A program made the position numbers and the translations under genes. From Candidatus Nanopelagicales bacterium (GTDB lineage Bacteria > Actinomycetota > Actinomycetes > S36-B12), in contig JAQTZL010000004.1 of assembly GCA_028687755.1 (NCBI GenBank), positions 62,001-126,000 of the forward strand: DNA of 64,000 nucleotides, read 5' to 3'. Of this stretch, positions 1 to 56,636 are shown in pieces (within the stretch, counting starts at the first letter, position 1; each line of letters begins with the position of its first letter). The notes beneath the pieces are model-generated. The model was not told the DNA's origin and did not search any database. It worked only from the letters and a program-made list of their open reading frames with translations.

Positions 1-1491
1 TTTGTATTGCCTGCTACTGAGTTTCCAAGGTCTACCTTCGTTTTGGCCACTGGTATCGCAGGTGCAAGCATGCTTGGCGCTCGCTTCATGTGGAGAAGTG
101 CGCGTCAGCAGACTGCTCTGCGACGTGAGGGTTCCCGCACACTCATTTATGGAGCAGGCGATGCTGGTTCGCAAATTGCGACCTTAATGCTGTCTGATCG
201 TTCTAGTGGTTTTCAACCGATCGGATTTATCGACGACGATCCCAATAAGCAGCATTTACGAAGAGCTGGACTCCGGACTTTGGGAAATGTGGATCAAATT
301 GAGGACTTGATCGCTGAGTATCAAGTAGATGTTGTGTTGGTTGCGATTGCTCAAGTCACGGCACCACGATTGCAGGAGCTTGACCGTAGGTGTACTGCTT
401 TAGGCGTTAGGGTGCAGGTCATTCCAACCGCATCTGAAATCGTTGGGGGGGCGGTCAAACTTGGAGATATTTCTGATCTCACTGAGGAAGACCTCATGGG
501 ACGCAGACCAATACGAACCGATGAAGCTCAAATAACGGACTTCATAAGAGGTCGCAGGGTTCTAGTAACTGGAGCAGGCGGTTCTATTGGTTCAGAATTA
601 GCCCGACAGTTAGTTAGGTATTCACCGAGTCGCCTGATGCTTCTTGACCGAGATGAGTCAGGGCTTCATGCTCTCCAACTCACTCTTGATGGAAGTGGAA
701 CTCTTACCTCTCCGGATTTGATCCTTGCAGATATACGCGACGGACAGCGACTTTTAGAAATCTTTGAAGAAGTCGAGCCGGAGATTGTGTTTCACGCAGC
801 TGCACTAAAACACTTGCCACTCCTTGAGCGATACCCAGATGAAGCCATCAAAACGAATGTATTTGGAACGCGCAATGTTCTTTCAGCGGCAGAGTCAGTC
901 GGAGTGCATGTATTTGCGAATATTTCGACCGACAAAGCAGCTGACCCAACGAGTATTTTGGGATACAGCAAGCTCATAACTGAGAGACTCACCGCAGGAA
1001 TGCCCGGCGGAAATGAATCCAAATACGTTTCGGTTCGCTTTGGAAATGTTCTTGGTTCCCGAGGTTCTGTTATTGAAACATTTAGGTACCAAATCGCGCA
1101 TGGTGGACCCGTAACGGTCACGGATGAGCGAGTGACTCGTTACTTCATGACAGTTCAAGAGGCTGTTCATTTAGTGCTTCAAGCTTCAGTTCTCGGTACG
1201 CATGGGGAGACACTTATTTTGGATATGGGTACGCCGGTGAATATTGCTGATCTAGCGCGACAGATGATTCATCGTTCAGGTCGCGACGTGGGTATCAAAT
1301 TTACGGGACTTCGCCCTGGAGAAAAACTCGATGAAGTTTTAGTTGCGAATAGTGAAAGCGCAGCACGGCCTCTGCACCCGTTGATTTCACATACGGATGT
1401 TGTGAGTCAAAGTTTCGAAACTCTCCATCCTCTAGTAGCGGCAAGTGATCCTGCTTCCACACTGCGTGCAGTAGCGTTGGGGTCTTTATAA
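1..1491 (+). CDS. UDP-sugar 4,6-dehydratase, PglF/CapD/FlaA1 family (5' partial)
   Basis: The reading frame is open to the window edge, so the start is missing; family members are about 600 residues with several N-terminal membrane helices, of which only the end is seen. A CoA-binding-like Rossmann domain (GAGDAG near visible residue 50) is followed by an SDR domain with TGAGGSIGS (about residue 188) and the STDKA motif (about 307) that carries the Thr-Asp-Lys catalytic triad of this family. The usual SDR Tyr, Met in PglF, is Leu in LGYSK (about 318-322). The likely reaction is UDP-GlcNAc to the UDP-4-keto-6-deoxy sugar, the first step toward bacillosamine; PglE-, PglD- and PglC-like genes lie at 22.5-26.1 kb. 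The family call is firm; the exact substrate is inferred. Confidence 0.85.
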   Translation, partial: FVLPATEFPRSTFVLATGIAGASMLGARFMWRSARQQTALRREGSRTLIYGAGDAGSQIATLMLSDRSSGFQPIGFIDDDPNKQHLRRAGLRTLGNVDQIEDLIAEYQVDVVLVAIAQVTAPRLQELDRRCTALGVRVQVIPTASEIVGGAVKLGDISDLTEEDLMGRRPIRTDEAQITDFIRGRRVLVTGAGGSIGSELARQLVRYSPSRLMLLDRDESGLHALQLTLDGSGTLTSPDLILADIRDGQRLLEIFEEVEPEIVFHAAALKHLPLLERYPDEAIKTNVFGTRNVLSAAESVGVHVFANISTDKAADPTSILGYSKLITERLTAGMPGGNESKYVSVRFGNVLGSRGSVIETFRYQIAHGGPVTVTDERVTRYFMTVQEAVHLVLQASVLGTHGETLILDMGTPVNIADLARQMIHRSGRDVGIKFTGLRPGEKLDEVLVANSESAARPLHPLISHTDVVSQSFETLHPLVAASDPASTLRAVALGSL

Positions 1492-9877: not shown

Positions 9878-10032
9878 TGAAGGCGCCCGACTTATGCATG
9901 GAGAAATCGTATACTGCGAACGCAACAACATCGACTTGCCGAGCAAGTGGTGCGTATCAAAGACCAAGTTCGATGCCGCATTCGAGGTTGGTGATGGGGC
10001 CACCTGAACAATAGGTCGGCAGATGGGAAATC

Positions 10033-12902: not shown

Positions 12903-14792
12903 ATGAGGAGCCTGAGGATTGGAAACACCCTGCTGTGGGCCTCCGCCATTATGGCAAGCCTTGTTATGCTGTGGCTGGGTCTCGGGCTAATTCTGGGTAG
13001 TTCCCGCGGCTTGGACTTGACCGACGAAGGTCTCTACTTACTTGGGGCCGACCCGCCGAAGGCAACAGCGGCTTGGGGCTGGCCCTTCGGTTGGCACACT
13101 CACCCACTATTTGCCTTAGTCAACTATGACATTGCGAGTTTCCGCACATTTGGCGCTTTCATTCTCGTCCTGTCGGCTGTATGGCTGGGCTGGATGGTGG
13201 CCCAAGTCGTGCGAACGGATGATGAGGCTTACCTTCGCGCGAACACTTGGCTGCCGGCAATCGGTTCTGCGTGCATAGCTGGGTTCGGTAGCATCTTGTA
13301 CTACGTCTCGATGCTGCGGACTCCAAGTTACAATTGGCTGTGTTTGGTGGGCATCAACTTTGCAACAGTCGGCTTATTGCTCACTTTGCGAAGGGCCGGG
13401 AGAGCAAGCACTGAAGGTCGGTGGCGTCGGTCGGCTCTACCTGGTGTGATCTCATCGGTGGCTTTGTTTCTGACCTTTCCCGCCAAGCCCTCGGTATTGC
13501 CTATGTTTCTACTGATGGGCGTGCTCGTAATCGCTCTTCTGGCCAATTGGGGTTCAGCGTGGCGCTGGCTCGTTTGGGTCGTCGGGCTCCTACCGGTTTG
13601 GGCTGTGTTTGCTGTCATAACCCGGGTGTGGCCTGTGGAATTCGCTTCAGTTCTAGCGCGCGCAGTGCAGATGCCCTTTCCCAACCCCTCCCAGACACCG
13701 CGGGGTGCCATACAGGAAGCTCTGCTGGTCCCTCGTGAGGCAGCAGTGGCGATCGGTGAAATCACCGATGGGCCGGCACTGCTGATGCTCGGCGCTGTAA
13801 TCATTCTTGCCCTGCCATTGTTCTTGCAGCGCCGATGGCTCATCGTGCGTCTCGCCGGATTCGCGACTATGACCGCAGCGGCACTCGGGATCGCCGGAGT
13901 GCCCATCCCTCTGGTGAATGCTGAGGGTCGACCCTTTGGTCTGGCCCAACCGACCTTAACCACAGCACTGGTGGCCGTATTGCTGGCCACAGTTGCGCTT
14001 TCGTGGCATTTGGACGGTTTTCCGCCCTCCCGAGTCGGGCAACGATTCACGCAACTACAAGTCAGTGGCGTCTTGGCCACCTTTCTGACCCTGCTCGCCC
14101 TGGTGTTCGGCTTCGGATCTGACAACGGAATCTACGGCCAAGCTGCAGTCGCTGGGGGCCTGATACTCAGTGCGGCGGCCACAATTGCACTTGGCCTAAA
14201 GGTCGGGCGGGATAGTCTCATCGTGTTGCTGGCTGTGCTGACTGCGACCGCACTGTTCGTCGCCTCCGGACTGGTGGGTGGGTGGCGTTTCCCGCAACGA
14301 CAGGTACCTCTCGCCGAGCAGATCGTCAAAACTGACATAGGGGTGCATGGTGCTCAACTGCTGCTTGACTCGAGGACCGCGCAAACCCTGGCTGGCCTGC
14401 AGTCGCAATCGAAACTACTTGGCTGGAAAGCGGGCACTCCATTGGTGGACGTGTCGTATACCTGGAATCCGGGTGTGGTCTACGCATTGGGTGGCCAAGC
14501 GCCTGACTCACTCATGCTCACTATCTTCGGTTACGCCGCAGCGCACGACATCACTGCATTTCACTTGCAGGGGCCCTATTTAAAGTTTCCATTTCATGAT
14601 GCTTGGCTACTGACAACGCGTCCGAAGCTGCTCGATTCGGGTGCACGAAGTGCCGTTGACTTCACTCTTGATCGGCTTTCATCGGTATCTGGGAAGCCCT
14701 TTCCGTCCTCCTACTCTTGCATTGAGTCAGGCGACTTTATCCTTTGGCGACCGTTGAGCAAGGTGAAGTCCGCGACGGGCTTATGCGGGTAG
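12903..14792 (+). CDS. polytopic GT-C-like membrane protein (paralogue of 5217-7223)
   Basis: 629 residues when started at the ATG at 12903, ten bases after the carbamoyltransferase stop; an upstream frame overlaps that gene and is rejected. After the first helix comes GLDLTDEGLYLLGADPP and PFGWHTHPLF, matching the paralogue almost word for word, and the C-terminus has PDSLMLT and a FPFHDAWLLTT block. About ten to twelve membrane segments lie between. The acidic pair in the first loop suggests GT-C catalysis with a lipid-phosphate sugar donor. Confidence 0.7.
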   Translation: MRSLRIGNTLLWASAIMASLVMLWLGLGLILGSSRGLDLTDEGLYLLGADPPKATAAWGWPFGWHTHPLFALVNYDIASFRTFGAFILVLSAVWLGWMVAQVVRTDDEAYLRANTWLPAIGSACIAGFGSILYYVSMLRTPSYNWLCLVGINFATVGLLLTLRRAGRASTEGRWRRSALPGVISSVALFLTFPAKPSVLPMFLLMGVLVIALLANWGSAWRWLVWVVGLLPVWAVFAVITRVWPVEFASVLARAVQMPFPNPSQTPRGAIQEALLVPREAAVAIGEITDGPALLMLGAVIILALPLFLQRRWLIVRLAGFATMTAAALGIAGVPIPLVNAEGRPFGLAQPTLTTALVAVLLATVALSWHLDGFPPSRVGQRFTQLQVSGVLATFLTLLALVFGFGSDNGIYGQAAVAGGLILSAAATIALGLKVGRDSLIVLLAVLTATALFVASGLVGGWRFPQRQVPLAEQIVKTDIGVHGAQLLLDSRTAQTLAGLQSQSKLLGWKAGTPLVDVSYTWNPGVVYALGGQAPDSLMLTIFGYAAAHDITAFHLQGPYLKFPFHDAWLLTTRPKLLDSGARSAVDFTLDRLSSVSGKPFPSSYSCIESGDFILWRPLSKVKSATGLCG

Positions 14793-14861: not shown

Positions 14862-15821
14862 ATGGTGGTCAGCGATGCGCCTAAGGTCGCTGTCGTGTTG
14901 CCGATCTTCAACGGCGAAGCACACCTTCGCGCGTCGATTGACTCGATATTGGCGCAGACCTTCGTCGACTTCGAATTGGTGTTAGTCGATGATGCCTCGA
15001 CTGATAACAGCCTGACAATCGCGCGTGGATACGAGGATTCTCGGATTCGGGTGCTTGCTTTGCAGGAGAACCGAGGGCTAGCAGCTGCGCTCAACGATGG
15101 CATCGGGTTCGCGCGTGCGCCCATAATTGCGCGACAGGACCAAGATGACATATCCGCGCCCCAGCGGCTCGAACGGCAACTCGCTGTACTGGAGCAAGAT
15201 GCAGGCGTAGTCCTTGTCGGCACTTGGGCAAAGGTCATAAGACCGGATGGGTCAGGTGGATGGCAGCATTGCGGCGCCCACCACCATCCCGTCAGTGACG
15301 ATGCACTGCGATTGCGACTGTTGTGGAACAACCCTTTCGTGCATAGTTCCGTAGTCTTTCAGCGAAGCGCTTTCGAGGAGGCTGGTCAGTACGGAACTGA
15401 TCCCGAATTAAACTGGCCCGAGGACTACGACCTCTGGGTCAGGATGGCGCCGCTGGGCCGCATGGCTACGGTGCCGGATGAGCTGGTTATTTATCGTCAG
15501 ACGCATGGCGGTATGTCGGATATCAATCGCGAGCGAATCCTTCATGGTGTGGTGCGCATAGCGACTAGGAACCTAGCGAAAGCGTCAGGGTGCGCGCCGA
15601 CCGATACGCGCGTCAAGGCACTAGCGCGCGTTCTCAATAGTGTTCCAACTCCAACCACAACCCCGGTTGAGGCCTTGCAACGAGCACGCATATTCCTGCG
15701 TGCATGCAGAATGTCTGTTCACTCAAGAAGTTTAGCGCTGTCAGCAATGCGTGCCCGTTGGGCGGGAAAGATCGTGGCCAGATCGCTCGATCCACGGTGG
15801 GGTAGCATCGATAATGAGTGA
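14862..15821 (+). CDS. GT2 family glycosyltransferase
   Basis: 319 residues, soluble. GT-A motifs: VVLPIFNGEAHL, LVDDASTDNS, the ARQDQDD metal site and WPEDYDLWVR near the catalytic base. This is the WcaA/RfaG-like class that adds one sugar to a lipid-linked glycan in the cytoplasm. ATG 14862 or GTG 14865 could be used; the upstream TAGGCT favours GTG. The C-terminal 80 residues are variable and basic. It is followed within 60 bases by the ABC transporter. Confidence 0.85.
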   Translation: MVVSDAPKVAVVLPIFNGEAHLRASIDSILAQTFVDFELVLVDDASTDNSLTIARGYEDSRIRVLALQENRGLAAALNDGIGFARAPIIARQDQDDISAPQRLERQLAVLEQDAGVVLVGTWAKVIRPDGSGGWQHCGAHHHPVSDDALRLRLLWNNPFVHSSVVFQRSAFEEAGQYGTDPELNWPEDYDLWVRMAPLGRMATVPDELVIYRQTHGGMSDINRERILHGVVRIATRNLAKASGCAPTDTRVKALARVLNSVPTPTTTPVEALQRARIFLRACRMSVHSRSLALSAMRARWAGKIVARSLDPRWGSIDNE

Positions 15822-15881
15822 TAGGTGCCGAATGCGAGTGTTAATACGTTGGGGCGTGGTTGCGTGAGGCCGTGGTCGCCA

Positions 15882-17720
15882 GTGAGCGACAGCCTTAAAT
15901 TGTTGAACAAGGTTGATCAACGCAAGTTGGGCGTCGTCACTGGCATCCAAATGCTCACAGGATTTCTCGATGCTGCAGGTGTGGCACTCTTCGGGATTGT
16001 GGCCGCTATGGCCACTTCGGCAGTCTCTGGCACTCCACTACCGAGCATGGTGAGTTCCATTGTTGGAACCAGCAATGCAACTTCTGAGGAATTATTAGGA
16101 AGTGCCATCCGGTTGAGTGTGATCGCTGGCCTCCTGCTCATAACCAAGAGCATCGTTAACGTCCTGCTCACCAGGCGTGTGCTTCGATTCTTGGCCTATC
16201 GCCAAGCGATCGTGTCAGGTCAACTTGCGTCGACACTCCTCGCACGCCCGCTGATCCAAGTGCAACGGCGCCAGAGTCAGCAGACAGCATACGCCCTTAC
16301 AACGGGCGCGAACTCAGCGATGCTCGGAGTCCTCGGGCAAGCAGTCACCGTTGGCGCAGAGTTGAGCCTCCTTGGCATCCTCGCCGTAGGCCTACTTCTG
16401 CTCGATCCAGTCGTCGCGATCTTCGCTGTTGCATTTTTCGCTGGGATAGCTTTCATCTTGCAGCGCATCATGTCGAGCCGCGCCCATCGGCTTGGAACGA
16501 CCAACTCGGAAGCGGAGGTTGCAAGCACCGCACTTGTTCAGGAGTCCGTCTCCACCTATCGCGAAGTACTGGTGACCAACCGACGCAACCTCTACGCTCA
16601 GCAGTTTCAGGCTCTGCGCTGGACTGCCGCGCAGGTCCAAGCCGACTTGAGCCTGATGAGCCAAGTACCCAAGTACGTCTTTGAGGTGGCACTCATCATC
16701 GGGGCAGGCCTCTTGGCCTGGTCCCAGTTCCTCTTGAAGGATGCCTCGGCCGCGATGGCCATTATTGCTGTGTTCTTAGCCGCAGGATCCCGTGTGGTGC
16801 CCTCGATGCTTCGACTCCAGGGAGCAACGCTCGGCATCCGCGTCGCCAGTGGCATGGCCAAGCCCACGATCGAATTGGCTCAGGAACTTCGCGTGAGTTC
16901 GGAAGGTGACACCGACGCAGAATCGTACGCAACCGTCAGTCTGGAGGAACTGACACGCCGGGTACGTGATGGTTCCCCGGACTTTGACCCGACTGTGAAT
17001 CTCCAAAACGTGACCTTTTACTACGAATCAGCGGCTGCACCGTCACTCTATGAAGTGAACTTGCATGTGCCACCCGGCTCATCGGTAGCGCTCGTGGGCC
17101 CGACGGGAGCGGGCAAATCCACTCTTGCCGATGCAATCCTGGGTGTTGTCCGTCCTGCTTCAGGTCGGGTCGAGATCGGTGGACTTCCTCCCCTAGAGGC
17201 CATATCGCGGTGGCCAGGAGCGCTCGCATATGTTCCACAGGCGGTGTCCATCGTGACCGGCTCTATTCGACAGAATGTTGCACTCGGTCTCCCCGCCCAT
17301 GCGATTGATGACGACCGGGTGTGGGAAGCATTGAAATCCGCTCGTCTCGATGACTTTCTAAGAGAAGCGCGCGATGGGCTCGACACTGTGGTGGGTGAAG
17401 CTGGAGTTCGCATCAGTGGTGGCCAGCGCCAGCGGTTGGGCATCGCCCGCGCTCTTTATACACGTCCGCTGCTCATGGTCCTAGACGAGGCCACCAGCGC
17501 CTTGGATGCCGAGACCGAGCGCGCGATCGTCGACACGCTCCAAGAACTCGAGGGCAATGTCACCGTTGTGACCATCGCTCACCGGCTGGCAACCGTGCGC
17601 CATTGCGATCTCGTTGTCTACCTTGAGGGCGGCGCCATCGTGGCGCGCGGCACCTTCGACGAGGTGGTCTCTGCTGTGCCGAACTTCGCTCAGCAGGCGC
17701 ACCTGCTCGGCCTGGTGTAG
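15882..17720 (+). CDS. ABC exporter, PglK/MsbA-like glycolipid flippase
   Basis: About 612 residues from the GTG at 15882; a frame open from 15825 would add 19 residues lacking conservation. The N-terminal membrane domain begins LLNKVDQRK and FLDAAGVALFG, close to the pattern of PglK. The ATPase domain has Walker A GPTGAGKST (about residue 405), signature ISGGQRQRLG (about 510), Walker B LLMVLDEATSALD (about 530) and a downstream switch His in IAHRLATV. One polypeptide with both domains works as a homodimer. Together with PglF/E/D/C-like genes in the window it is a good candidate to flip the lipid-linked oligosaccharide. Confidence 0.85.
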   Translation: MSDSLKLLNKVDQRKLGVVTGIQMLTGFLDAAGVALFGIVAAMATSAVSGTPLPSMVSSIVGTSNATSEELLGSAIRLSVIAGLLLITKSIVNVLLTRRVLRFLAYRQAIVSGQLASTLLARPLIQVQRRQSQQTAYALTTGANSAMLGVLGQAVTVGAELSLLGILAVGLLLLDPVVAIFAVAFFAGIAFILQRIMSSRAHRLGTTNSEAEVASTALVQESVSTYREVLVTNRRNLYAQQFQALRWTAAQVQADLSLMSQVPKYVFEVALIIGAGLLAWSQFLLKDASAAMAIIAVFLAAGSRVVPSMLRLQGATLGIRVASGMAKPTIELAQELRVSSEGDTDAESYATVSLEELTRRVRDGSPDFDPTVNLQNVTFYYESAAAPSLYEVNLHVPPGSSVALVGPTGAGKSTLADAILGVVRPASGRVEIGGLPPLEAISRWPGALAYVPQAVSIVTGSIRQNVALGLPAHAIDDDRVWEALKSARLDDFLREARDGLDTVVGEAGVRISGGQRQRLGIARALYTRPLLMVLDEATSALDAETERAIVDTLQELEGNVTVVTIAHRLATVRHCDLVVYLEGGAIVARGTFDEVVSAVPNFAQQAHLLGLV

Positions 17721-17722
17721 TG

Positions 17723-18613
17723 ATGGGTGCGGGTCCCTTGGTCATCGTTGTCTGCACAAAGGGCCGTCCGAATTTGCTTGCACGCCTTCTCTCCTCGCTC
17801 GCGGTGCAAGAGTGGCCGGCTGCAGTTGACTTACTTGTGCTTGACAACGACGCGGCCCAGTCGGCGCAACCTGTGGTCAAGGCAGCGTTGAGCGACTTCC
17901 CTGTGGCGATCCAGTACTCGACCGAAGCAAGGGCTGGCTACGCAACGGTGCGCAATGCGGCGCTTGATGTAATTCCGTCGGGTGCAGCGGTTTGTTTCAT
18001 CGACGATGACGCGGTCGTGCCCCATGGCTGGCTGCGCACCATGTTCGAAGCGCATGGGCGCTCGCCGCAGTCAATAATCCGGTCGAGGTATTTGCATGTT
18101 GCAACGCTGCCACCGACGACCGACGAGCTGGCCGACCTTCTCGTTGGCGTTGACATGGCTGCCCTTGGCCCAGCTGGTACGAGCGGGCTGCTCCTCCCAG
18201 CTGGCGCGCATCAAGAGGTTCGCTTCGACCCCTACTTTGACCGCTCCGGCGCTGAAGACATGGACTTGCTTGCCCGGCTGGATGCACTCGGGCACCCTGA
18301 ACTGCTGGCTGATGCGGTAGTGATTGAGCAAGATCGGGTGCAGTCGCTAACACCTGCTCAACAGCGTGCGATCGCCCGCTGGAATGGCCGACTCTCGACG
18401 ATTGCACGTGCGCACCGGGGTTGCCCGACCCTCGGTTGGCGTATCGGAGCCGCGGCTCGAAGCGTCTGGGCACTCCTGCAGGCCGTTGCTCGCTTCGCAC
18501 TCGGTCGTCGCGATGCGGGCCATTCTTATATGTCGTATTCGGCCAGCCGATGGGCGATGGCTGCAGCTCCCATACGACCCCCGAATGAGCTTGGCGGTCG
18601 TCCATGGACATAG
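17723..18613 (+). CDS. GT2 family glycosyltransferase
   Basis: About 296 residues; the ATG at 17723 follows the ABC stop by two bases. It has VIVVCTKGRPN, LVLDNDA, the CFIDDDAVV metal site and SGAEDMDLLARL with the catalytic acid. It belongs to the GT2 branch with a TKGRP start, often found with polysaccharide ABC transporters. The last 60 residues are basic and Ala-rich. Last gene of the rightward group; the sugar is unknown. Confidence 0.82.
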   Translation: MGAGPLVIVVCTKGRPNLLARLLSSLAVQEWPAAVDLLVLDNDAAQSAQPVVKAALSDFPVAIQYSTEARAGYATVRNAALDVIPSGAAVCFIDDDAVVPHGWLRTMFEAHGRSPQSIIRSRYLHVATLPPTTDELADLLVGVDMAALGPAGTSGLLLPAGAHQEVRFDPYFDRSGAEDMDLLARLDALGHPELLADAVVIEQDRVQSLTPAQQRAIARWNGRLSTIARAHRGCPTLGWRIGAAARSVWALLQAVARFALGRRDAGHSYMSYSASRWAMAAAPIRPPNELGGRPWT

Positions 18614-18652: not shown

Positions 18653-19441
18653 TCAGTGGCGTCGAATGCTGCGAAGCATCTGCGGCGCCGTCCAAACTAG
18701 TTGCCGTAGTTGAGCCAACAGAACAGAGTTGCCCCGAGCGCGTGCTAGGGCCCGGCGTGACTGAGCCACTAGCACCCGGGTCTCATGTGGGATTGCCTTA
18801 GTTCGTGAAACTTGCTGCGAGTGGATGCGATAGCGCAGTAATGGTTCCGGCAAGTTGTCGAGTTCGCCTAGGGCTGCAAGCCTGAGCCAGAGCTCGTAGT
18901 CCTCGGCATGCGTGGCACGCGAGTCATAGCCACCTGCGTCCAATACCAGCTCCCTGCGCATCATCACGCTCGGATGCACAAGCACGCTCTTCCATTGGAG
19001 TCCCTCGCCAACGTGGAGCCCAGATGGCACAGTGCGTAACCCAACAACCGAGCCACTTTCGTCAATGACCGTCGCCGCACAGCCAACGGCTATTACGGAA
19101 GGGTGCTTGTCTAGAAACACCTGCTGCGTCGCGAGTCTGGTTGGTTCCGGGATGTCGTCGTGGTCCTGTCGCGCAACATATGGCGCGGAACATACTTCTA
19201 GGCCTGCATTGAGCAGGTCTTGAAGTTTGGCTTCGGGGGGCATTGGCACTATCACTGCATTGGGAACCTTGGAAAGAATTAACGGCGTGAGCATGCTTGC
19301 ATCCCCATGGACCACGGCAATCAGTCGCCAGTTGCAGTCCACTTGTGCAACCAGGCCATCGAGAGTCTCAGTCAGCCAAGGTGCCGGGACCCTAGTTGGC
19401 ATTAGCACGTCGACAGAGACAGGTTCGATTTGCGAGCTCAT
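18653..19441 (-). CDS. GT2 family glycosyltransferase
   Basis: 262 residues. GT-A signature is weaker at the N-terminus (VDVLMPTRVPAPWL) but the metal site ARQDHDDIPEP, the VHPSVMMRR loop and HAEDYELWLRL are clear and resemble the 14862 gene. Start overlaps the WecE stop by four bases (ATGA), so the two are translationally coupled. It may transfer the amino sugar that WecE makes, which is inference from position. Confidence 0.83.
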   Translation of the reverse strand: MSSQIEPVSVDVLMPTRVPAPWLTETLDGLVAQVDCNWRLIAVVHGDASMLTPLILSKVPNAVIVPMPPEAKLQDLLNAGLEVCSAPYVARQDHDDIPEPTRLATQQVFLDKHPSVIAVGCAATVIDESGSVVGLRTVPSGLHVGEGLQWKSVLVHPSVMMRRELVLDAGGYDSRATHAEDYELWLRLAALGELDNLPEPLLRYRIHSQQVSRTKAIPHETRVLVAQSRRALARARGNSVLLAQLRQLVWTAPQMLRSIRRH

Positions 19442-20565
19442 GTGTTCGTGAATGATGTTGCAGCCCGAATCACAGTGCGTTGAGCGTCATCTCCGAGGTC
19501 GTAGAACAGTGGAAGACGCACCAGGGTCTGTGAAGCATCCGAGGCAACCGGACAGGAATGCCCTTCTTGCAGGCTTAAGCCAACGGGTGATTCGTGCAAC
19601 GCTTGATAGTGGAAGACAGTAAGTACGTCACGCTCACGCATGTGAGCGATGAAGTCATCGCGCGCATGTCGCGACTTGAAGCGCAAGTAGAACATATGTG
19701 CTGTGTGGTCGGCTAGTTCTGGGACCTGCGGCAAGGTCACACCTACTTGGTCAGCCCACTCTGCAAGTTCCTCTTGGTACTGGAGCCAAAGACGCATTCG
19801 CTCGGCTTGGATCTCGTCAAACCGCTCGAGCTGTCCGACCAGTGTTGCCGCGAGCATGTCGGACATCACCCAGCTTGAGCCAACGTCAGCCCAGGTGTAC
19901 TTATCGACCTGCCCTCGCAGGAAGCGCGCACGATTCGTGCCTTTTTCTCTCAGAATCTCAGCTCGTTCGACCAACGACGGATCATTGAGGATGAGTGCAC
20001 CACCTTCGCCGCAAGTCAGGTTTTTAGTCTCGTGAAAGCTAAGCGTTGACATGGCACCGAAGGTCCCTAAGGTACGCCCGTCGAAGTGACCGCCGAGTCC
20101 GTGCGCATTGTCCTCGATGAGAGTGATTCCATGATCGACTGCGAGCTGCTGAAATGCATCCGGATCCGCACCAACACCCGCGTAGTGCACGACGCAGATC
20201 GCCTTTGTTCGGGCAGTGATGAGTCTTGCGACGTCGCTTGGATCAACATTAAGAGTATCGGCGCGACTGTCGGCAAAGACCGGCTTCGCACCGTTCCACA
20301 TAAATGCACTTGCTGTAGAAACGAAGGTATACGACGGCACGATTACTTCATCGTCAGGTTGAAGGTTCAGTAGGCGAGCACTGAGTTCGAGTGCGTGCGT
20401 GCAGTTAGTTGTTAGTAAAGCGGTTGCGCCTGAGTGCATTTTCGACAGCGCAGATTCCGCCATTTTGGTGAACTCGCCGTTACCGGAGATGGAACCATTC
20501 CCAATGGCCTGCTCGAGGTAGGCCCGTTCGTTTCCGTGAAACGAGGGTCGATTGAAGGGGATCAT
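19438..20565 (-). CDS. WecE/RffA-like dTDP-4-amino-4,6-dideoxygalactose transaminase
   Basis: 375 residues from the ATG at 20565 (MIPFNRPS), the same length and start as E. coli WecE; the frame extends to 20628 without conservation. A GGAG sits five bases upstream. Conserved stretches include VPSYTFVSTA, VVHYAGVG, the PLP-binding Lys in SFHETKN and EKGTNRARFLRGQVDKYTW, all near-identical to WecE. The enzyme converts dTDP-4-keto-6-deoxyglucose to dTDP-Fuc4N with glutamate as amino donor. RmlB at 52007 would supply the substrate. No WecD was recognised; the GNAT at 9218 might serve. Confidence 0.9.
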   Translation of the reverse strand: MIPFNRPSFHGNERAYLEQAIGNGSISGNGEFTKMAESALSKMHSGATALLTTNCTHALELSARLLNLQPDDEVIVPSYTFVSTASAFMWNGAKPVFADSRADTLNVDPSDVARLITARTKAICVVHYAGVGADPDAFQQLAVDHGITLIEDNAHGLGGHFDGRTLGTFGAMSTLSFHETKNLTCGEGGALILNDPSLVERAEILREKGTNRARFLRGQVDKYTWADVGSSWVMSDMLAATLVGQLERFDEIQAERMRLWLQYQEELAEWADQVGVTLPQVPELADHTAHMFYLRFKSRHARDDFIAHMRERDVLTVFHYQALHESPVGLSLQEGHSCPVASDASQTLVRLPLFYDLGDDAQRTVIRAATSFTNT

Positions 20566-20644: not shown

Positions 20645-21562
20645 TCATGACTCCTCGAATCCTGCGTCTATGGAGATCCATGACGATGGGCGCAAATCAC
20701 GTTCGTCAAGTCCAGAATTTCGCAGCCATGGAGTCGGGCAAATAACGACAGTCTCGTCCGGGTCGCCAAGCCAGGCAGCCCACCAACTGAACGAACTATT
20801 TGCGGTAATTACCGCAGTTGCTTTAGACATTAAAGCAATACTCTCGGCGGCATCGGCCTCATTTGCAGGCTCCACTACGAGGGCGTCAACAGCTATTGGG
20901 CCAAGCATTCTGATTGCTTCAGGCGGGTCGTCCGAGAAAATGACAATTCTTCCCGCGACACCGCGATCGTTCAGGGATTGGATCGCACGTTCGTAATAGG
21001 GCCTCATGAGCAATCCGTGAAAGGCGGAGTTTCGTGCCTCCATGTAGTCGCCTCGGCGAACATGCAGCGCTATCCATGGGCCTAGGGCGTCAAGTTTTTC
21101 GCTTGTTTGAGTACGCCATAAGGAATGGGGAATGTGGACCTGTATATCTCGACGAAGTTCACCCGCGATGTTTTCAAAATAGCGAGGAGATTGGAAGTAG
21201 CCCGACAAGACCGCGCCCACTCGAACCTGTGTGATGCGAGAGTCGTACTCGAACCCTCGCTCCTTGAAAGTGTCGCGCGGTAACAGTGCAGGAACTCGCC
21301 GTCCTACAGCGGCACGTATCCGACCAACGCTCGAGTAACCGAGGTCGATCACTTGTGTCGCATCTACAAGCCACGAAAGCTCAAACTCACGTGAAGTATC
21401 TTCGGGGCCAACTCTGGATAGTTCAGAGGTGTCTAGAAACACTGGGCATTTGAGCCTAGCGGCGACCCCGCGCGCAGCAGCGTATTCAAACAACTGGTTA
21501 CCGAGACCGCCGGAGAGTTTGGCAGTGATTCCTGACCTCGTGACATTAGCGAGTTCGCTCAT
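20645..21562 (-). CDS. GT11 alpha-1,2-fucosyltransferase-like glycosyltransferase
   Basis: About 305 residues from ATG 21562; an earlier ATG at 21637 would overlap the upstream gene more. GT11 motifs are clear: GGLGNQLFEYAAARGVA at the N-terminus, SGYFQSPRYF, the HVRRGDY nucleotide-binding loop, and ITANSSFSWWAAWLG at the end. The family transfers L-fucose from GDP-fucose in alpha-1,2 linkage, as in the H antigen. It overlaps the 3' end of the GT6 gene by 17 bases. No GDP-fucose genes (gmd, fcl) are in the window. Activity with other sugars is possible. Confidence 0.88.
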   Translation of the reverse strand: MSELANVTRSGITAKLSGGLGNQLFEYAAARGVAARLKCPVFLDTSELSRVGPEDTSREFELSWLVDATQVIDLGYSSVGRIRAAVGRRVPALLPRDTFKERGFEYDSRITQVRVGAVLSGYFQSPRYFENIAGELRRDIQVHIPHSLWRTQTSEKLDALGPWIALHVRRGDYMEARNSAFHGLLMRPYYERAIQSLNDRGVAGRIVIFSDDPPEAIRMLGPIAVDALVVEPANEADAAESIALMSKATAVITANSSFSWWAAWLGDPDETVVICPTPWLRNSGLDERDLRPSSWISIDAGFEES

Positions 21563-22409
21563 CGCCCTTATCCACAGCGAGGATTTTAGGATCGAGTCCG
21601 GCCAAGTTGGCGAATCCCTGGGCGAAGCAATATTCACTGCTCAATAATGCAGTTGGATGTTGAGAGGAGTACCAATTCATGTGACTTTCATCGTGCCAAA
21701 CCGCAATCGTTCCTTCAATCAAATCGGCTTTGGTGCGCTCGGAAAGTTCATGGACCATGGAGAGAAACGGATCACGTAGCCCCATCCAGGTGCCTCCGCA
21801 TACATACACCCGCCTCTCGTTACGTGGGACGTACGCTCGCGACTCTGGACGTTGCTCCCATGCGCCCCGGGAACCGGATTGCGCCCGCAAGATCGCATCT
21901 TGCGTAGCTAGACGCGGGTTCCGAGCGTAGAGCGAAAGCCTGTGTGGCCAATTCGGACGCCAAAAGCCGGGGTGTCGAACCAGCGCTAAGCCGCCGGGCC
22001 AATCATTTGGGTGCAGGTCATCTCCAATGTCCGCGACAATGCGCATGTCGGCATCAAGATGTATGAGCAAATCCTGATCCATATCAGATCGATGCTCATC
22101 AATGAGTGAATACCTCAGCAAGGTGGCTTCTGGCCATTTAAGCGCTTCGATTGATATTGGGTTGACTGTGACTCGATTGAAATCGCCAGCCATCCCTCGT
22201 ACTTCATCTTCGCGGTCCGTAAAGACGTGGAGGACAACCGTTCGATCTGTGAACAAATGTTCATCAGCACTCATTGCCATGTCACGCCAATATTCGAGAT
22301 AGCGATTCGTGGCTACTGTTACTACTCCGACTGAATTGATATCGACAGTCGGCAAAACAGTTCTTGGTTCGTGGGACACGGTAGTGAGTCTCTCATGGAG
22401 AGGCCACAA
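21546..22409 (-). CDS. GT6 (ABO blood-group-like) glycosyltransferase
   Basis: 287 residues from a TTG with GGAG eight bases upstream. It matches family GT6 along its length: VVTVATNRYLEYW, HVFTDRED, WPEATLLRY, HLDADM (residues 118-122), VRHPGFW, EQRPESRAYVP, CGGTWMG and AVWHDESHMNWY. GT6 enzymes add Gal or GalNAc in alpha-1,3 linkage, often next to an alpha-1,2-fucose. A DAD metal motif is present where most known bacterial members, as I recall, have NxN. There is an extra segment of about 25 residues (155-184). Pairing with the GT11 gene suggests an A/B-antigen-like product. Confidence 0.88.
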   Translation of the reverse strand: MWPLHERLTTVSHEPRTVLPTVDINSVGVVTVATNRYLEYWRDMAMSADEHLFTDRTVVLHVFTDREDEVRGMAGDFNRVTVNPISIEALKWPEATLLRYSLIDEHRSDMDQDLLIHLDADMRIVADIGDDLHPNDWPGGLALVRHPGFWRPNWPHRLSLYARNPRLATQDAILRAQSGSRGAWEQRPESRAYVPRNERRVYVCGGTWMGLRDPFLSMVHELSERTKADLIEGTIAVWHDESHMNWYSSQHPTALLSSEYCFAQGFANLAGLDPKILAVDKGDERTR

Positions 22410-22483: not shown

Positions 22484-23137
22484 CTAAACCAAATAATCAT
22501 CGCCGGGCTTTCTAGCAGAATTTTTTGATGCGGGAATTCCAAACGCCACGGTCAGCTCGGGAATGTCTTGATGAACGTAACTCTGAGCTCCGATGACTGT
22601 GTCTTTGCCGATTGAAATGCCATGCTTAACAGTTGCACCAATCGAAATCGCGGTTCTTGCGCCAATGTGCACGTTCCCACCAAGAGTTGCATTTGGCGCG
22701 ATAGAAGCAAAGTTTTCTAACATGCAATCATGTTCAACGACAGCCGCACTATTGATAAGACATCCCTGGCCGATACGAGCATTACTGCCAACCACGGCAT
22801 TTTGTAATACGACCGTTCCTTGGTCAATTGTGGCGAATCGAGAAATTGACGCAGAGGGATGAATAAAGCAGGGAAATTGTTCAATCGGAATAGTGAGTAA
22901 AAGTCTGTTCCAAATGACTTCGCGTTGGTAATTGTCACCAATACCAATGGCAACGAGCCCACCATTTCTTATGTGATCGTTCGGAAAGTTATTGACAACT
23001 GGGTAACCAAGCAGTTCGTGCGTTTCTCCGGATTCATCAATAAAGCCGGTAATTGTGTAACCAGACGCAGTGACAGTTTCAGCCAAGCTCGTCGCGTGAC
23101 CACCAGCGCCAAAAATGACTACCCCGTGGCGTGTAAT
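22484..23137 (-). CDS. PglD/NeuD-like sugar O/N-acetyltransferase, ATT start
   Basis: 217 residues. An N-terminal Rossmann-like domain begins GVVIFGAGGHATSLAE, followed by a left-handed beta-helix of hexapeptide repeats (VVGSNARIGQGC, ATLGGNVHIGA) with the catalytic-type His in VVEHDC. The GAGGHA motif lies upstream of the first ATG/GTG/TTG (TTG at 23086), so the gene must start earlier; the only good candidate is ATT at 23137, six bases after AGAGGAG. PglD acetylates the 4-amino group of the UDP-sugar made by PglE. The PglE-like gene is 1.3 kb away, divergent. Confidence 0.82.
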   Translation of the reverse strand: MTRHGVVIFGAGGHATSLAETVTASGYTITGFIDESGETHELLGYPVVNNFPNDHIRNGGLVAIGIGDNYQREVIWNRLLLTIPIEQFPCFIHPSASISRFATIDQGTVVLQNAVVGSNARIGQGCLINSAAVVEHDCMLENFASIAPNATLGGNVHIGARTAISIGATVKHGISIGKDTVIGAQSYVHQDIPELTVAFGIPASKNSARKPGDDYLV

Positions 23138-23181: not shown

Positions 23182-24327
23182 TCAATTTGTAATTCTATTT
23201 AAATAGTCACTAAATCGTTGTTCAACTAATGAGCAATCAAAGTTTTCCTTTACCCATACTGCGCCGTTCGTTCCCAATCTCTCCCGCAGTTCAAGGTCGC
23301 TACTCATCTCAAGAATTGCTTTGGCTAGGGATTCTGGTGACTTTGCTTCGACCAATATTCCAGTGGTGTTGTCGACAATTGAGTCTGAACATCCGGTTAC
23401 CTTCGTGGTGATCACCGGGAGCCCGCATGCTTGAGCTTCAAGGACAGAGATCGGAAAACCTTCTCTGTAACTCGGGAGGCAAAAAATATCCGCTGCCCAC
23501 AGCAGGCTCCTTGGATCATCAACAGGCCCGTAGATGTGAGCCCAAGGCTGAGAGTCGAAAAGTTGAAGGGTCGATTCGAGTGCGAATTTATCTGACTGCT
23601 CTTCGGGTCCAACAATTTCGAGTTTTAGGTTTGTGTTTGAAGCAGATGCACTTTGCATCGCATTAGCCAAGTCTTTGATGCCTTTATCAACGGCGAGACG
23701 TCCGAGGTACATCACGACTATGTCGCGCTGTGTGAATCCAGCGGCAACACGAGCCAACTCTTTTTCTTCACTACTCGGTGGCCGGAAATAGCTTGTATCC
23801 ACGCCACAGGCACTACCTAAACCCAAGACGACTGCTTGCTTAGATTTGAGCAATCCCTCCGTCTCGAGCAATTCAGTGAGCGAATTGCTATCCGAGAGAA
23901 TATTTGTTGACCACTTAATCGCGAGTTTCTCAGATCGAATACTGATGAAGCGCAATGAACCTTTCAGGCCCTCAGCCCTTAATCCCCGGATGTGATAAAC
24001 CCTTGTCGGCACGCGACAAAGTCGAGCAGCGATACTTCCGAGGAGCCCAGCTTTTGGCGTGCTCACGACAGTTACATCTGGCTGCACAAGTTTTAAAAGG
24101 CGAATCCATGAGTACAAGCCGCGTAAGTCGGCGGTGATGCTTGGTTCTCTTCGCATTGGTACGGCGTGAACTGAGACACCCGGTATTTCTTGCAGGGTGT
24201 CGAACCCTGAATCAAGGGAAGTGGCTAGGTGGACTTCCCAGCCTTCATTGACGAGAAGTTGCATTTGACCAGTGAGAAACGCATTGGCTGTCAGAGGAAT
24301 TGTGACCCCGAACAAGACCTTTCGCAT
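23182..24327 (-). CDS. GT4 family glycosyltransferase, PglA-like
   Basis: 381 residues. N-terminal GT-B domain with an early GVTIPLTANAFLTGQM block; C-terminal domain with YLGRLAVDKGI, the FCLPSYREGFPISVLEA donor-site motif with the EX7E acids, and ACGLPVITT. The second half strongly resembles PglA, which adds alpha-1,3-GalNAc to diNAcBac-PP-undecaprenol. A TATCCT box at -12 to -7 indicates a leaderless start at ATG 24327. It is the first gene of the leftward group GT4, PglD, GT6, GT11, WecE, GT2. The sugar is inferred only. Confidence 0.85.
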   Translation of the reverse strand: MRKVLFGVTIPLTANAFLTGQMQLLVNEGWEVHLATSLDSGFDTLQEIPGVSVHAVPMRREPSITADLRGLYSWIRLLKLVQPDVTVVSTPKAGLLGSIAARLCRVPTRVYHIRGLRAEGLKGSLRFISIRSEKLAIKWSTNILSDSNSLTELLETEGLLKSKQAVVLGLGSACGVDTSYFRPPSSEEKELARVAAGFTQRDIVVMYLGRLAVDKGIKDLANAMQSASASNTNLKLEIVGPEEQSDKFALESTLQLFDSQPWAHIYGPVDDPRSLLWAADIFCLPSYREGFPISVLEAQACGLPVITTKVTGCSDSIVDNTTGILVEAKSPESLAKAILEMSSDLELRERLGTNGAVWVKENFDCSLVEQRFSDYLNRITN

Positions 24328-24396: not shown

Positions 24397-25536
24397 ATGA
24401 GTCCTGCGGATGAGCGCGTCTACTTATCGGCGCCGAGAGCTCTTCCTGAGGACATCGCCAGCGTTACTCGAGCACTTGAATCTGGGTGGCTAGCACCTGT
24501 TGGTCCGGAACTTTCAGGATTCGAGTCGGATATTGCCGAATTTATTGGCGTGAAGCATGCAGTCGGACTCAGTTCTGGAACAGCTGCTTTGCACCTTGGT
24601 TTGAAGTACTTGGGCGTCAAGTCAGGCGACTACGTGATCGTTCCAACAATGACATTCGCGGCTACGGCTTTCGCCGTGACGTACCTAGGTGCCATACCTG
24701 TTTTCGTCGATGTTGACCAAGAATCATGGAATCTTGATCCCATTCTTCTCGACGAAGTTTTGACCGAGCTGGCGAAATCTGGAAAGAAAGTTTCTGCGGT
24801 TATCCCAGTCGATCTCTATGGAACACCATGTAATTACCTGCAAATATTAACGGTTTGCGAACGACACGGCGTCCCCGTCCTTGAAGATGCCGCAGAGGGC
24901 TTGGGTGCTTCGCTGGGTGGTGCGCGCCTTGGTTCTTATGGACGAGCGGGAGTTCTTTCATTTAACGGAAACAAGCTCATCACGACTTCAGGTGGTGGGA
25001 TGCTCGTGACCGATGATGATGAATTTGCTGCGAAGGTTAGATATTGGTCGACACAGGCTCGTTCTGACAATCCTTGGTATGAACACACCGAAATCGGTTA
25101 CAACTATCGCCTAAGCAATATATTGGCGGCTCTTGGCCGTTCTCAACTTCGACGAGTACCAAGAGAAGTGGAAACACGCCGTTCGACGCGAGAAATGTAT
25201 CGGGACTTATTCGCGTGTATGCCCGGCATGGAAATTCAGCAAGATCCGTCTTGGGGCACATCGAATGCATGGCTCACAGTGGTGCGTTTCGATCTCTCGG
25301 TTTTTCCTAATGCGCCCACACGAGTGCGTGAATTCTTAGAGTCCAACAATGTTGAGTCGAGGCCAATATGGAAACCGATGCATCGGCAACCAGTATTTGC
25401 GAGCAACCCAAAATTTTTGACGGGGATCGGCGATGAGTTGTTTGAAAATGGGCTATGTCTTCCATCAGGTACCGGACTTGACAGTCGAGATATTGAGCGA
25501 GTCGCCTCGCTCGTCATTGAATGCCTAGAGTCTTGA
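24397..25536 (+). CDS. PglE-like UDP-4-amino-sugar aminotransferase (DegT/DnrJ/EryC1/StrS)
   Basis: 379 residues. PLP-fold motifs: GLSSGTAALHLGL, VPTMTFAATA, PVDLYG, LEDAAEGLGA, and the PLP-binding Lys in SFNGNKLITTSGGGML, which matches PglE closely. It would aminate UDP-4-keto-6-deoxy-GlcNAc, the product of the PglF-like enzyme at the left edge. The next gene (PglC-like) starts 16 bases before its stop. Divergent from the GT4/PglD group across about 70 bases. Confidence 0.88.
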   Translation: MSPADERVYLSAPRALPEDIASVTRALESGWLAPVGPELSGFESDIAEFIGVKHAVGLSSGTAALHLGLKYLGVKSGDYVIVPTMTFAATAFAVTYLGAIPVFVDVDQESWNLDPILLDEVLTELAKSGKKVSAVIPVDLYGTPCNYLQILTVCERHGVPVLEDAAEGLGASLGGARLGSYGRAGVLSFNGNKLITTSGGGMLVTDDDEFAAKVRYWSTQARSDNPWYEHTEIGYNYRLSNILAALGRSQLRRVPREVETRRSTREMYRDLFACMPGMEIQQDPSWGTSNAWLTVVRFDLSVFPNAPTRVREFLESNNVESRPIWKPMHRQPVFASNPKFLTGIGDELFENGLCLPSGTGLDSRDIERVASLVIECLES

Positions 25537-26135
25537 ATCGTTTTTATCGTGTTTTCATAAAGCGCATATGTGATCTATTTTTTTCAAGCCTACTGATGAT
25601 TCTTTTGTCTCCCGTGTTCTTCCTTGTTCAGTTTCGAGTTGCGAAGAATTTGGGTCGACCAACTATCTTTCGTCAATTGCGCCCAGGGCTTCGTGGGCAA
25701 GTGTTTGAGTTGAGAAAGTTCCGAACAATGGTGCATGCGGACCCTCAGAGCTCGCTCACAGATGCTGAGCGGCTCACCCCGTTTGGAATGAAACTTCGAT
25801 CATCGAGTTTGGATGAGCTACCGGAACTCTGGAATATTTGGAGAGGCGATATGAGTTTCGTCGGCCCTCGCCCGTTGCTTGTCGAATATTTGCCCCTCTA
25901 TTCGTCGTCACAGGCTCACAGACACGATGTTCGGCCTGGTTTGACTGGCTGGGCTCAGATCAACGGGCGCAATTCCTTGAGTTGGGAAAAGAGATTTGAG
26001 CTGGATGTTTGGTACGTGGAAAATTGCGCATTCCTGCTTGATTTGAAGATTTTGTGGCGAACTGTCGTCAAGGTTCTTAAGCGGGAAGGCATCACTGCGG
26101 AAGGCGATGTCACCATGCCGCCATTTTTGGGTTAA
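25521..26135 (+). CDS. PglC-like phosphoglycosyltransferase (bacterial sugar transferase)
   Basis: 204 residues, the small monotopic form. One N-terminal re-entrant membrane segment (about 10-35, with SPVFFL) is followed by TIFRQLRPG, ELRKFRTM, the catalytic Asp-Glu in SLDELPELWN, GDMSFVGPRPL and RPGLTGWAQINGRN. It links a phospho-sugar, probably diNAcBac-1-P, to undecaprenyl phosphate and so starts glycan assembly. Overlap with the PglE-like gene implies coupling. Confidence 0.9.
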   Translation: MPRVLNRFYRVFIKRICDLFFSSLLMILLSPVFFLVQFRVAKNLGRPTIFRQLRPGLRGQVFELRKFRTMVHADPQSSLTDAERLTPFGMKLRSSSLDELPELWNIWRGDMSFVGPRPLLVEYLPLYSSSQAHRHDVRPGLTGWAQINGRNSLSWEKRFELDVWYVENCAFLLDLKILWRTVVKVLKREGITAEGDVTMPPFLG

Positions 26136-28195: not shown

Positions 28196-30181
28196 GTGGA
28201 GTTCGCATTCCTTGCCGCATATCTGGCATTTGCCGGGTTGACCCTGCTGTGGTGTCGCAGTGTGGCTTGGTGGGTAATTTCAATTGTTACGGGAATAACC
28301 TTCGCCGGCGCTGTCATGAATCTCGGAGTTGCGCTCGGGCATAACTGGAATAAAACAGAACTTCAGGTCCTCCTACTCATTGGTCTAGCGGGACCAGCAG
28401 CCGTTGCGTTCTTACGGCGTAGGGCTAAGAATCCTTGGGAACTGAAATATCAGGCATTAGCCGTTCTTTTGCCATTCGCGCTCTTAGTCGGGTTCTTCTT
28501 TTTAGTTACCGTCTTTTGGACAAAAGAACCCGCATATCTGCATCCCGTGAGTTTCCTTATGGGCCACAACCAAGCCGAAGACAATGCAAAGTGGCTTGAC
28601 TTCACTTCTCAGTTCGCGAGCGGCCAACCAATTTGGCAAGCAGTTCCCATGGGTGGACCGCTTGCGATGGTAATGGTTTTTGTTGCGACCGCTATGGGCG
28701 CGGTCTCACGTGCTGCATTTGGCGGGTACAACCAAGTCGCAGTAGCCGCGAACACCGTGGTGTTTGGCGAGTACTTCATGGTGATTCTCGCACCGCTCGT
28801 ATTGGCACCGCTTACACAAGCCCGGCTGCGCCTTCAAGGAACAGGCGAACGAATCAGGATTCCTGCACCATTCATCTGGCTGGCGGCGCTGGTGGTCGCT
28901 GCCGCGAATCTCGTGGCTACGGGGTATGGACACCTGACATTTCAGTTCGTGGTGCTTGTGGCGACTCTTTGGGCAGCCACTTTCATGAGCCGCGTTTCAG
29001 TTCCTCGAGCGTTGTTGATGACAACGTTGATCATGATTGTTGCGATGACCGTTTGGTTCCCATTGAACGTTCTCGCGGGCATTTTGCTTTTGGGCACATT
29101 GGTGTACCTCGTTCGACAAGCTCGATTCGCAGCAACGCGGGATTACATAGGAATATTTCTGTGGCTGTTTGTAGCAATCTGCACTTGGCAACCGTTATGG
29201 AGTTCAGTTTCATTTGTGGTGCAAGGAAGCGCTCCAACTGCTTCAGGAGAATCAGCCGGAGGAGTGGGGGCTGTTGTTGCTTCGGTATCAGCTGGCCTTG
29301 CCGATTCGACGTTGTTTTCGGCATCTGGCGGAACTGATCAAACCGGTCCGATCCTTGCAATTCTTGCTTGCACAGCCGTTCTGGGAGCATCGATTTTCTT
29401 AAGTCGACAAACGGGTGGTCAATCAACTTCCCTGTATATCCGTTTGCTGCCAATCATCGCCTTGGCAGGTATGGCGCTTCTCATCACGGTTCTTGACGCC
29501 TGGGCTACCGGCGGCGGCCCACACTATGGGGCATTGAAATTTACATTTATGGCCGCGATAGTTGTGACCGCTGTTTGTACTCCATTTGCGTTATTACTGA
29601 TTGACACGTCATCTCTTGTATCCATGACGCCACTTCGGTGGGCAGCAATTGTTACCGTGTTTTTCCTTCTCGTAGTTGACGGTCTGATTCCCAAAGCAAT
29701 TGCTGCAACGCGACCAGAGCAGTGGTCCCCGCCGAATCCTTCAAGTAATGCATTGAGTTATTGGTGGCCAGCGGATGTTCGGAATGCGGAAACGCAATCC
29801 ATTGCGACAAGCCCAGTCGGATGCGTGTACCTGCCCAATGGCGCAAAAGTACCGTCAGCGATTTTGCAATCGCAAGCCTCAACTCCTCAACAGGTATATT
29901 CCTGTACCCGAATTCTTGCTGGGCTTGCGGGGCAGGATACCCATGCGCAACCGCTCGTTGATTGGTTGCGCCGGGAATGGCTGACCAACACACCGGCATG
30001 GTCGGATGTTTACGATGGCTTGTCTGCGATGCCGGCGTCAGCTCTGGATAAGCCAATAATTTTGCTAGATGATTACAGCAACGTTATTGGTCTGGATTCA
30101 ATGCGCAGTCTGTTGCAGCGTTATCCGAAGTTTGCCGGAAAAACTCCTGAAGAACTGGCAGTTATTAACCAGAATCAGTGA
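28196..30181 (+). CDS. large polytopic membrane protein, GT-C-like, function unknown
   Basis: 661 residues from GTG 28196, which has AGAGGA seven bases upstream. About twelve or more hydrophobic segments; an outer loop has HPVSFLMGHNQAEDNAKWLD with several acids and FASGQPIW. The C-terminal 150 residues are soluble-looking with WWPADVRNAETQS and DDYSNVIGLDSM, and two pairs of Cys. No family is recognised by eye. Neighbours suggest a role in glycan assembly. It converges on the epimerase gene with a 14-base gap. Confidence 0.6.
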   Translation: MEFAFLAAYLAFAGLTLLWCRSVAWWVISIVTGITFAGAVMNLGVALGHNWNKTELQVLLLIGLAGPAAVAFLRRRAKNPWELKYQALAVLLPFALLVGFFFLVTVFWTKEPAYLHPVSFLMGHNQAEDNAKWLDFTSQFASGQPIWQAVPMGGPLAMVMVFVATAMGAVSRAAFGGYNQVAVAANTVVFGEYFMVILAPLVLAPLTQARLRLQGTGERIRIPAPFIWLAALVVAAANLVATGYGHLTFQFVVLVATLWAATFMSRVSVPRALLMTTLIMIVAMTVWFPLNVLAGILLLGTLVYLVRQARFAATRDYIGIFLWLFVAICTWQPLWSSVSFVVQGSAPTASGESAGGVGAVVASVSAGLADSTLFSASGGTDQTGPILAILACTAVLGASIFLSRQTGGQSTSLYIRLLPIIALAGMALLITVLDAWATGGGPHYGALKFTFMAAIVVTAVCTPFALLLIDTSSLVSMTPLRWAAIVTVFFLLVVDGLIPKAIAATRPEQWSPPNPSSNALSYWWPADVRNAETQSIATSPVGCVYLPNGAKVPSAILQSQASTPQQVYSCTRILAGLAGQDTHAQPLVDWLRREWLTNTPAWSDVYDGLSAMPASALDKPIILLDDYSNVIGLDSMRSLLQRYPKFAGKTPEELAVINQNQ

Positions 30182-56407: not shown

Positions 56408-56636
56408 CCGCGTGTTCAGCGAGATGCGAGGTTATTTGCAGTAGCTGCCATTCACCAAAAAGTGAATCTAATTGATCAACCGTGCTCTTGGACAGCTTGA
56501 ACAGCTCCCAGAGATAAGTCGGTGCGTTCTCGGTACGGAGATGATTGCAGGAGGCGCCTGTGGAGTGGGGAATAAACGCGCCTGAGCGACTTAGACTGGG
56601 AATAGTCGCACGTTAATTTTGGTAGGGGTTTTCCGA

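Follow-up and report, generated by a model that had tools for sequence, protein, structure and literature searches.

The gene at positions 21546-22376, with an open reading frame extending to 22409, encodes a bona fide family 6 glycosyltransferase (GT6) and overlaps a gene for a family 11 fucosyltransferase (GT11). With moderate confidence we read the pair as a two-step module that gives an ABO-type branch in a lipid-linked glycan. Judged from sequence, the host, a freshwater-type actinobacterium with relatives among Candidatus Nanopelagicales, probably makes an ABO-type, i.e., blood-group-like, glycan; this is a prediction. The novelty lies in the GT6 itself, a member of a separate clade with the metal motif DXD and a two-helix insert that is centred on Actinomycetota. 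All positions refer to the window, the 64,000-nt stretch of DNA analysed, which covers 62001-126000 of contig C4 in a genome of 2.5 Mb and 97% completeness. The features considered are, in order of position:

7..1491, plus strand, PglF-like NDP-sugar 4,6-dehydratase (PF02719, 7.2e-98)
12903..14792, plus strand, large membrane protein belonging to the conserved locus, candidate GT-C protein or transferase, conserved in the genus
14862..15821, plus strand, GT2 of the conserved locus (PF00535, 3.3e-31)
15825..17720, plus strand, ABC transporter with fused membrane part, conserved in the locus, possibly a lipid-linked glycan flippase (PF00005, 2.6e-27)
17720..18613, plus strand, GT2 of the conserved locus (PF00535, 6e-10)
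18653..19441, minus strand, GT2 glycosyltransferase, last of the minus-strand run, conserved in position (PF00535)
19438..20565, minus strand, WecE-like dTDP-4-amino-4,6-dideoxygalactose transaminase, start approximate (NF008687, 496 bits, cut-off 375)
20645..21562, minus strand, GT11 fucosyltransferase, 305 aa (PF01531, 3.8e-18)
21546..22376, minus strand, GT6 glycosyltransferase, 276 aa from GTG 22376, reading frame open to TTG 22409 with 287 aa (PF03414)
21873..21950, minus strand, coding for the 26-residue insert of two predicted helices (residues 154-179), no BoGT6a equivalent
22047..22055, minus strand, coding for the DAD metal motif at residues 119-121 (287-aa frame), placed by alignments
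22484..23086, minus strand, PglD/NeuD-type sugar acetyltransferase upstream of GT6 (TIGR03570, 167 bits, cut-off 160.8)
23182..24327, minus strand, GT4 glycosyltransferase (PF00534, 5.7e-36)
24397..25536, plus strand, PglE/LegC-like aminotransferase, start approximate (PF01041, 9e-95; TIGR04181, 354 bits, below the cut-off of 420)
25521..26135, plus strand, PglC-like initiating sugar-phosphate transferase (PF02397, 1.8e-58)

Six minus-strand genes form a run of GT4, PglD/NeuD-type acetyltransferase, GT6, GT11, WecE-like transaminase and GT2, in which GT11 starts inside the end of GT6 (overlap 17 nt) and the transaminase and GT2 genes overlap by 4 nt. The PglE/LegC-like aminotransferase and the PglC-like transferase diverge from this run, two GT2 genes and the ABC transporter converge toward it, and the PglF-like dehydratase is the first gene of the window. 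The large membrane protein at 12903-14792 is 49-72% identical across three genus members; a Pfam search returned no match for it and its AlphaFold model is unreliable (pLDDT 45.7). It is one of seven large reading frames (585-738 aa) with no significant Pfam match (5217-7223, 12903-14792, 28196-30181, 34464-36680, 36834-38615, 41141-42997 and 42916-44673); those that were read resemble multi-pass membrane proteins, possibly GT-C-like or polymerases. The same surface glycan region holds an AT3-SGNH acyltransferase (7263-9221) and a carbamoyltransferase (11105-12892), and these two genes suggest acylated and carbamoylated sugars. The 1052-aa protein encoded at 56619-59777 combines phosphatase-type domains at its N-terminus with a glycine-rich domain of the ALK/LTK type and is probably secreted to the surface. 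The Rfam search of the whole window gave no matches.

Pfam assigned both overlapping genes far above the cut-offs and returned no rival family: the GT6 frame matched PF03414 with 77.6 bits (E 9.6e-22, curated cut-off 25) and GT11 matched PF01531 with 66.2 bits (E 3.8e-18, cut-off 23.9). A better score to another family, named in the initial annotation as the result that would overturn GT6, is ruled out by Pfam, which gave GT6 alone; the sole NCBIfam match was Gltr_6 'family 6 glucosyltransferase', at 127 bits below its cut-off of 250. Sequence matches in the PDB were BoGT6a, the GT6 of Bacteroides ovatus, and ABO transferases. The likelier start is GTG 22376, preceded by GAGAG, and yields 276 aa; residue numbers follow the 287-aa frame. 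The motifs WPEATLLRY, HPGFW (146-150) and HDESHMN, on which the GT6 call had initially been based, were located again, together with DAD (119-121) and the donor segment Y202-V-C-G-G206. The conserved residues H146 of HPG, the catalytic E241 of HDES and the C-terminal K281 are intact. Structure prediction from a 36-sequence alignment, with six phage/plasmid rows left out, gave a model with pLDDT 94.5 and pTM 0.91. Its top structural matches were all BoGT6a, ABO transferases and alpha3GT, proteins of the GT-A fold, with BoGT6a as the best (Z 30.2, 230 residues superposed at rmsd 1.9) and the ABO transferases at Z about 27.8. The enzyme presumably catalyses a retaining alpha-1,3-transfer of Gal or GalNAc.

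Two features of the protein bear on metal chemistry. BoGT6a has an NXN motif and is metal-independent, and the GT6 of Parachlamydia acanthamoebae has DXD and requires Mg or Mn (PMC3961637). The window GT6 carries DAD together with a C-terminal Lys-x5-Arg (K281, R287), as in metal-dependent vertebrate GT6. R287 is the last residue of the structural alignments, where it is paired with ABO 352 and alpha3GT 365. In 174 GT6 sequences, Arg at Lys+6 was present in 96 of 110 other DXD enzymes and in 8 of the 11 members of the window clade, and in none of the 53 NXN-type enzymes; metal-dependent GT6 may be recognized in sequence simply by this residue. Since DAD and Arg at Lys+6 occur together, the sequence argues strongly for a metal-dependent enzyme. 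Membership in the metal-independent NXN subgroup fails on motif as well as on tree position. The acidic DAD reported initially is present, but the rarity implied for it did not hold: DXD occurred in 82 of 82 viral and 27 of 78 bacterial GT6 sampled here, the latter fraction leaning high because the sampling ranked relatives by their resemblance to a DXD query and demanded a WHDES-type motif. DXD as an oddity of the window protein is ruled out; it is common in viral and bacterial GT6 outside the gut-bacterial clade.

The suspected extra loop of about 25 residues proved real. Residues 154-179 (26 aa), directly past HPGFW, have no counterpart in BoGT6a, and the spacing is equally long in the alignment of all genus homologues. 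The structure prediction proposed for this region yielded two confident helices (model residues 145-152 and 154-167) in a block of pLDDT 95-97. Similar insert spacing is shared by the members of one clade: the genus, two MAGs each from Microbacteriaceae and Bacteroidota, and one Opitutae MAG. A second long-insert group of four other bacteria (L032, L033, L035, L040) was placed elsewhere in the tree; a single clade of all long-insert GT6 was not rejected by the AU test (p 0.227). The HPGF(W) segment is located at the acceptor side in ABO enzymes. In the model the insert would lie beside this acceptor-binding segment, and it may have a role in acceptor choice.

GT6 had been called rare in bacteria, and rare it is, though not very rare: one strict motif gave 225 places in 84,980 species genomes and 544 in viral contigs. 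A careful tree of 67 GT6, unrooted, included vertebrate, phage and bacterial members as had been proposed. The window protein fell into an 11-row clade of its own (100/97) with MAGs of the genus, Microbacteriaceae, Bacteroidota and Opitutae, apart from phage GT6 and outside the different clade that holds the NXN enzymes (98/98). The vertebrate ABO enzymes formed a long branch among DXD rows; joining them with NXN was not rejected (AU test, p 0.17). Within the family of the host, GT6 was detected in 5 of 85 genomes, all five in the window genus (Candidatus Nanopelagicales or Actinomycetota MAGs), and was not found in the other 13 genera. This narrow occurrence and the plentiful related GT6 in viral contigs would fit recent horizontal passengers, e.g., from phage, with a settled role for neither GT6 nor GT11. 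We consider such an origin very improbable, as phage GT6 fall outside the window clade, the GT6 proteins are divergent within the genus (48-65% identity), the locus is syntenic and the active-site residues are intact.

In the genus, the pair is a stable unit. GT11 was present in all five GT6-bearing genomes, compared with 5 of the 19 family members without GT6 (a hand calculation of Fisher's test, kinship ignored, gave p about 0.006). Three genus members (L013, L014, L015) kept the order GT6-GT11-WecE-GT2 as well as the convergent GT2-ABC-GT2 block, and a fourth (L016) kept the GT6-GT11 pair; the pairs of the genus lie mostly within a conserved Pgl-like glycan locus. In L014 a second GT6 with the donor triad YGA instead of CGG is located next to the pair in divergent orientation (8555-9364, minus strand, and 9429-10292, plus strand). 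In a Microbacteriaceae MAG outside the genus (L028), GT11 overlaps GT6 from the upstream side.

Beyond these relatives, GT11 was located at most 4 kb from GT6 in 48 of the 80 best bacterial loci, and it was immediately adjacent in 30 of 46 bacterial loci, where 16 would be expected if its place within the locus were random (p<0.0005). One lineage carries both domains in single reading frames, L055 4046-5677 (Planctomycetota KLAP7) and L069 3413-5587 (Hoeflea sp. M_23); these proteins are sisters (99/81), which rules out two independent fusions and probably reflects one event. GT6 and GT11 distances showed a significant Mantel correlation, but it was stronger for non-adjacent pairs and is thus not discriminating. 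The Gly of HPGFW is shared with the HPGF of ABO enzymes and BoGT6a and occupies the ABO-235 position, at which alpha3GT has Trp. From the GT6-GT11 linkage, the fusion and this Gly, an H-type fucosylated acceptor is predicted. BoGT6a, structurally the nearest characterised GT6, uses 2'-fucosyllactose (PMC3961637).

In loci with full flanks, GT11 accompanied 29 of 37 NXN but just 6 of 18 DXD enzymes, the DXD set including Chlamydiota and Dependentiae; the weaker linkage in DXD loci means that acting next to fucose is not universal for GT6. Vertebrate GT6 include alpha3GT and Forssman synthase, whose acceptors are not fucosylated. With these precedents, and with an insert placed past the acceptor-side HPGFW, the window GT6 could act on a non-fucosylated acceptor in the manner of alpha3GT or Forssman synthase, or on another sugar, while GT11 fucosylates a different residue and the two genes are neighbours only through a shared glycan locus. 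We regard this as rather unlikely in view of the GT6/GT11 overlap that holds across the genus, the enriched adjacency in bacteria with one fused lineage, and the Gly at the ABO-235 position. The two-step module acting on one branch remains the preferred reading.

Viral loci contained GT11 more often around GT6 (44 of 68) than around a different viral sugar-transferase gene (11 of 39, p 0.0003), yet no excess of direct GT11-GT6 adjacency was observed in them (13 versus 13.3 expected). Tight adjacency in phages is thus rejected: the genes are often near, but adjacent no more than at random. In the cyanophages B23 (L018 3216-4726), S-8S55 (L019 3183-4714) and Bellamy (L021 3195-4714), a DXD GT6 directly follows GT11, and phage ACG-2014f (L024) encodes a GDP-mannose dehydratase in addition to a GT11 located near GT6; these arrangements suggest phage-encoded ABO-like glycan steps. 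In a 642-kb uncultured phage (LR756502.1, L017 3233-4834) a GT2-like stretch is fused to the GT6 domain. Two Akkermansia-group loci (L068 1768-4140, L087 2384-4753) have GT6 with NGT for NXN at the end of reading frames of about 790 aa, with a long GT11-containing frame directly upstream.

GT11 starts with ATG at 21562 and contains the motifs HVRRGDY, FSDDP and ANSSFSWW, of which the HVRRGDY region was aligned; the overlap of a fucosyltransferase-like HVRRGDY protein with GT6, as first described, was reproduced by the profile match, the 17-nt overlap and the coordinates. Searching the genome gave a single GT11 and a single GT6. Gmd (475 bits, cut-off 415) is encoded on the same contig as the window, an Fcl homologue on contig C15 (52% identity to phage Fcl; 451 bits, just under the NCBIfam cut-off of 500), and GalE was detected on contig C12 with 364 bits (cut-off 262). 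The supply of GDP-fucose by Gmd and the Fcl-like protein, and of UDP-Gal by GalE, thus appears to be encoded. The GT11 family includes an alpha-1,3-fucosyltransferase (PMC4202792). For the window GT11, an alpha-1,2-fucosyl transfer from GDP-fucose is assumed.

A Gly at ABO position 266 or 268 has been proposed as a requirement for GalNAc-transferring GT6 (Wagner et al., PMC4692239). In the window GT6 these positions are occupied by C204 (266) and G206 (268). GTA with L and G and BoGT6a with A and G are comparable, GTB with M and A is not; by these residues, GalNAc is slightly favoured as donor. The whole triad CGG differs from LGG of GTA, MGA of GTB and AGG of BoGT6a. Together with the rare-sugar genes of the locus (WecE-like, PglF/D/E-like) and the name 'glucosyltransferase' of the NCBIfam match, even though that scored below its cut-off, this would agree with a UDP-sugar other than UDP-Gal or UDP-GalNAc for GT6, another 6-deoxysugar nucleotide for GT11, or both, and a branch ABO-like in topology only. 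Such donors seem improbable to us: the genome encodes Gmd and an Fcl-like protein and has a single GT11, and CGG retains the Gly at 268 as in GTA (PMC4692239).

In the two-step pathway that we prefer, PglF/E/D-type enzymes would synthesize a diacetamido sugar, which the PglC-like enzyme would transfer to a lipid carrier, and GT4 and GT2 enzymes would extend the lipid-linked glycan. GT11, with GDP-fucose as donor, would attach L-fucose in alpha-1,2 linkage to a terminal galactose. GT6, as a retaining, metal-dependent GT-A enzyme, would then add Gal or GalNAc (alpha-1,3) to the same fucosylated galactose, completing the ABO-type branch, and the ABC transporter would export the glycan. Acceptor, order of steps, donor, linkage, the roles of the neighbours and the final location of the glycan are all inferred.

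Bacterial synthesis of ABO-like structures is already known from E. coli O86, H. mustelae and B. ovatus (PMC4202792, PMC3961637); the system described here differs in host group, DXD/Arg chemistry, insert and Pgl-like locus. BoGT6a, an A-antigen-like synthase (PDB 4ayj, 4cj8), shares with the window GT6 the fold (Z 30.2), the catalytic Glu, HPGF and the C-terminal Lys, and its NXN-clade relatives are likewise often linked to GT11, but it has NAN, lacks Arg at Lys+6 and the two-helix insert, and belongs to the separate NXN clade. Human and vertebrate GTA/GTB share DXD, the Lys-x5-Arg tail, the catalytic Glu and HPGF, GTA also Gly 268; the window GT6 deviates from them by an identity of about 25%, Cys at 266, the two-helix insert and its nature as a cytoplasmic bacterial protein of a glycan locus. 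E. coli O86, with the GT6 WbnI and a GT11, and Helicobacter mustelae, with an A-type GT6, also combine GT11 and GT6 to ABO-type structures (PMC4202792), though in a Gram-negative, lipopolysaccharide setting instead of an actinobacterial Pgl-like locus. Parachlamydia acanthamoebae has a bacterial DXD GT6 like that of the window (PMC3961637), but the sampled Chlamydiota GT6 are outside the window clade and have no long insert. The cyanophage enzymes (P-SSM2, B23, S-8S55, Bellamy) also have DXD, three of them with GT11 immediately upstream; they differ in clade, in the missing long insert and in the order GT11-GT6 instead of GT6-GT11.

Bacterial GT6 enzymes were described as NxN in a review (PMC4202792), two DXD bacteria were known among 36 species with GT6 in 2014 (PMC3961637), and a survey of 2020 in eLife stated that prokaryotic GT6 lost DxD (PMC7185993). 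A DXD clade paired with GT11 in free-living actinobacteria widens this almost entirely NXN and Gram-negative picture. It may, as a tentative proposal, represent a deep-branching environmental subfamily centred on Actinomycetota that uses a vertebrate-like metal chemistry to form ABO-type branches and has a two-helix insert on the acceptor side. If so, and with the numerous DXD members of viral and environmental origin taken into account, DXD would be old in prokaryotes and viruses and the gut-bacterial NXN derived, which would speak against the view of a vertebrate origin of bacterial GT6. Metal-dependent and metal-independent enzymes become available for a natural comparison, and an acceptor choice altered by the insert, if real, may be useful for glycan synthesis. 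The origin of ABO-type glycans in microbes without vertebrate contact becomes testable.
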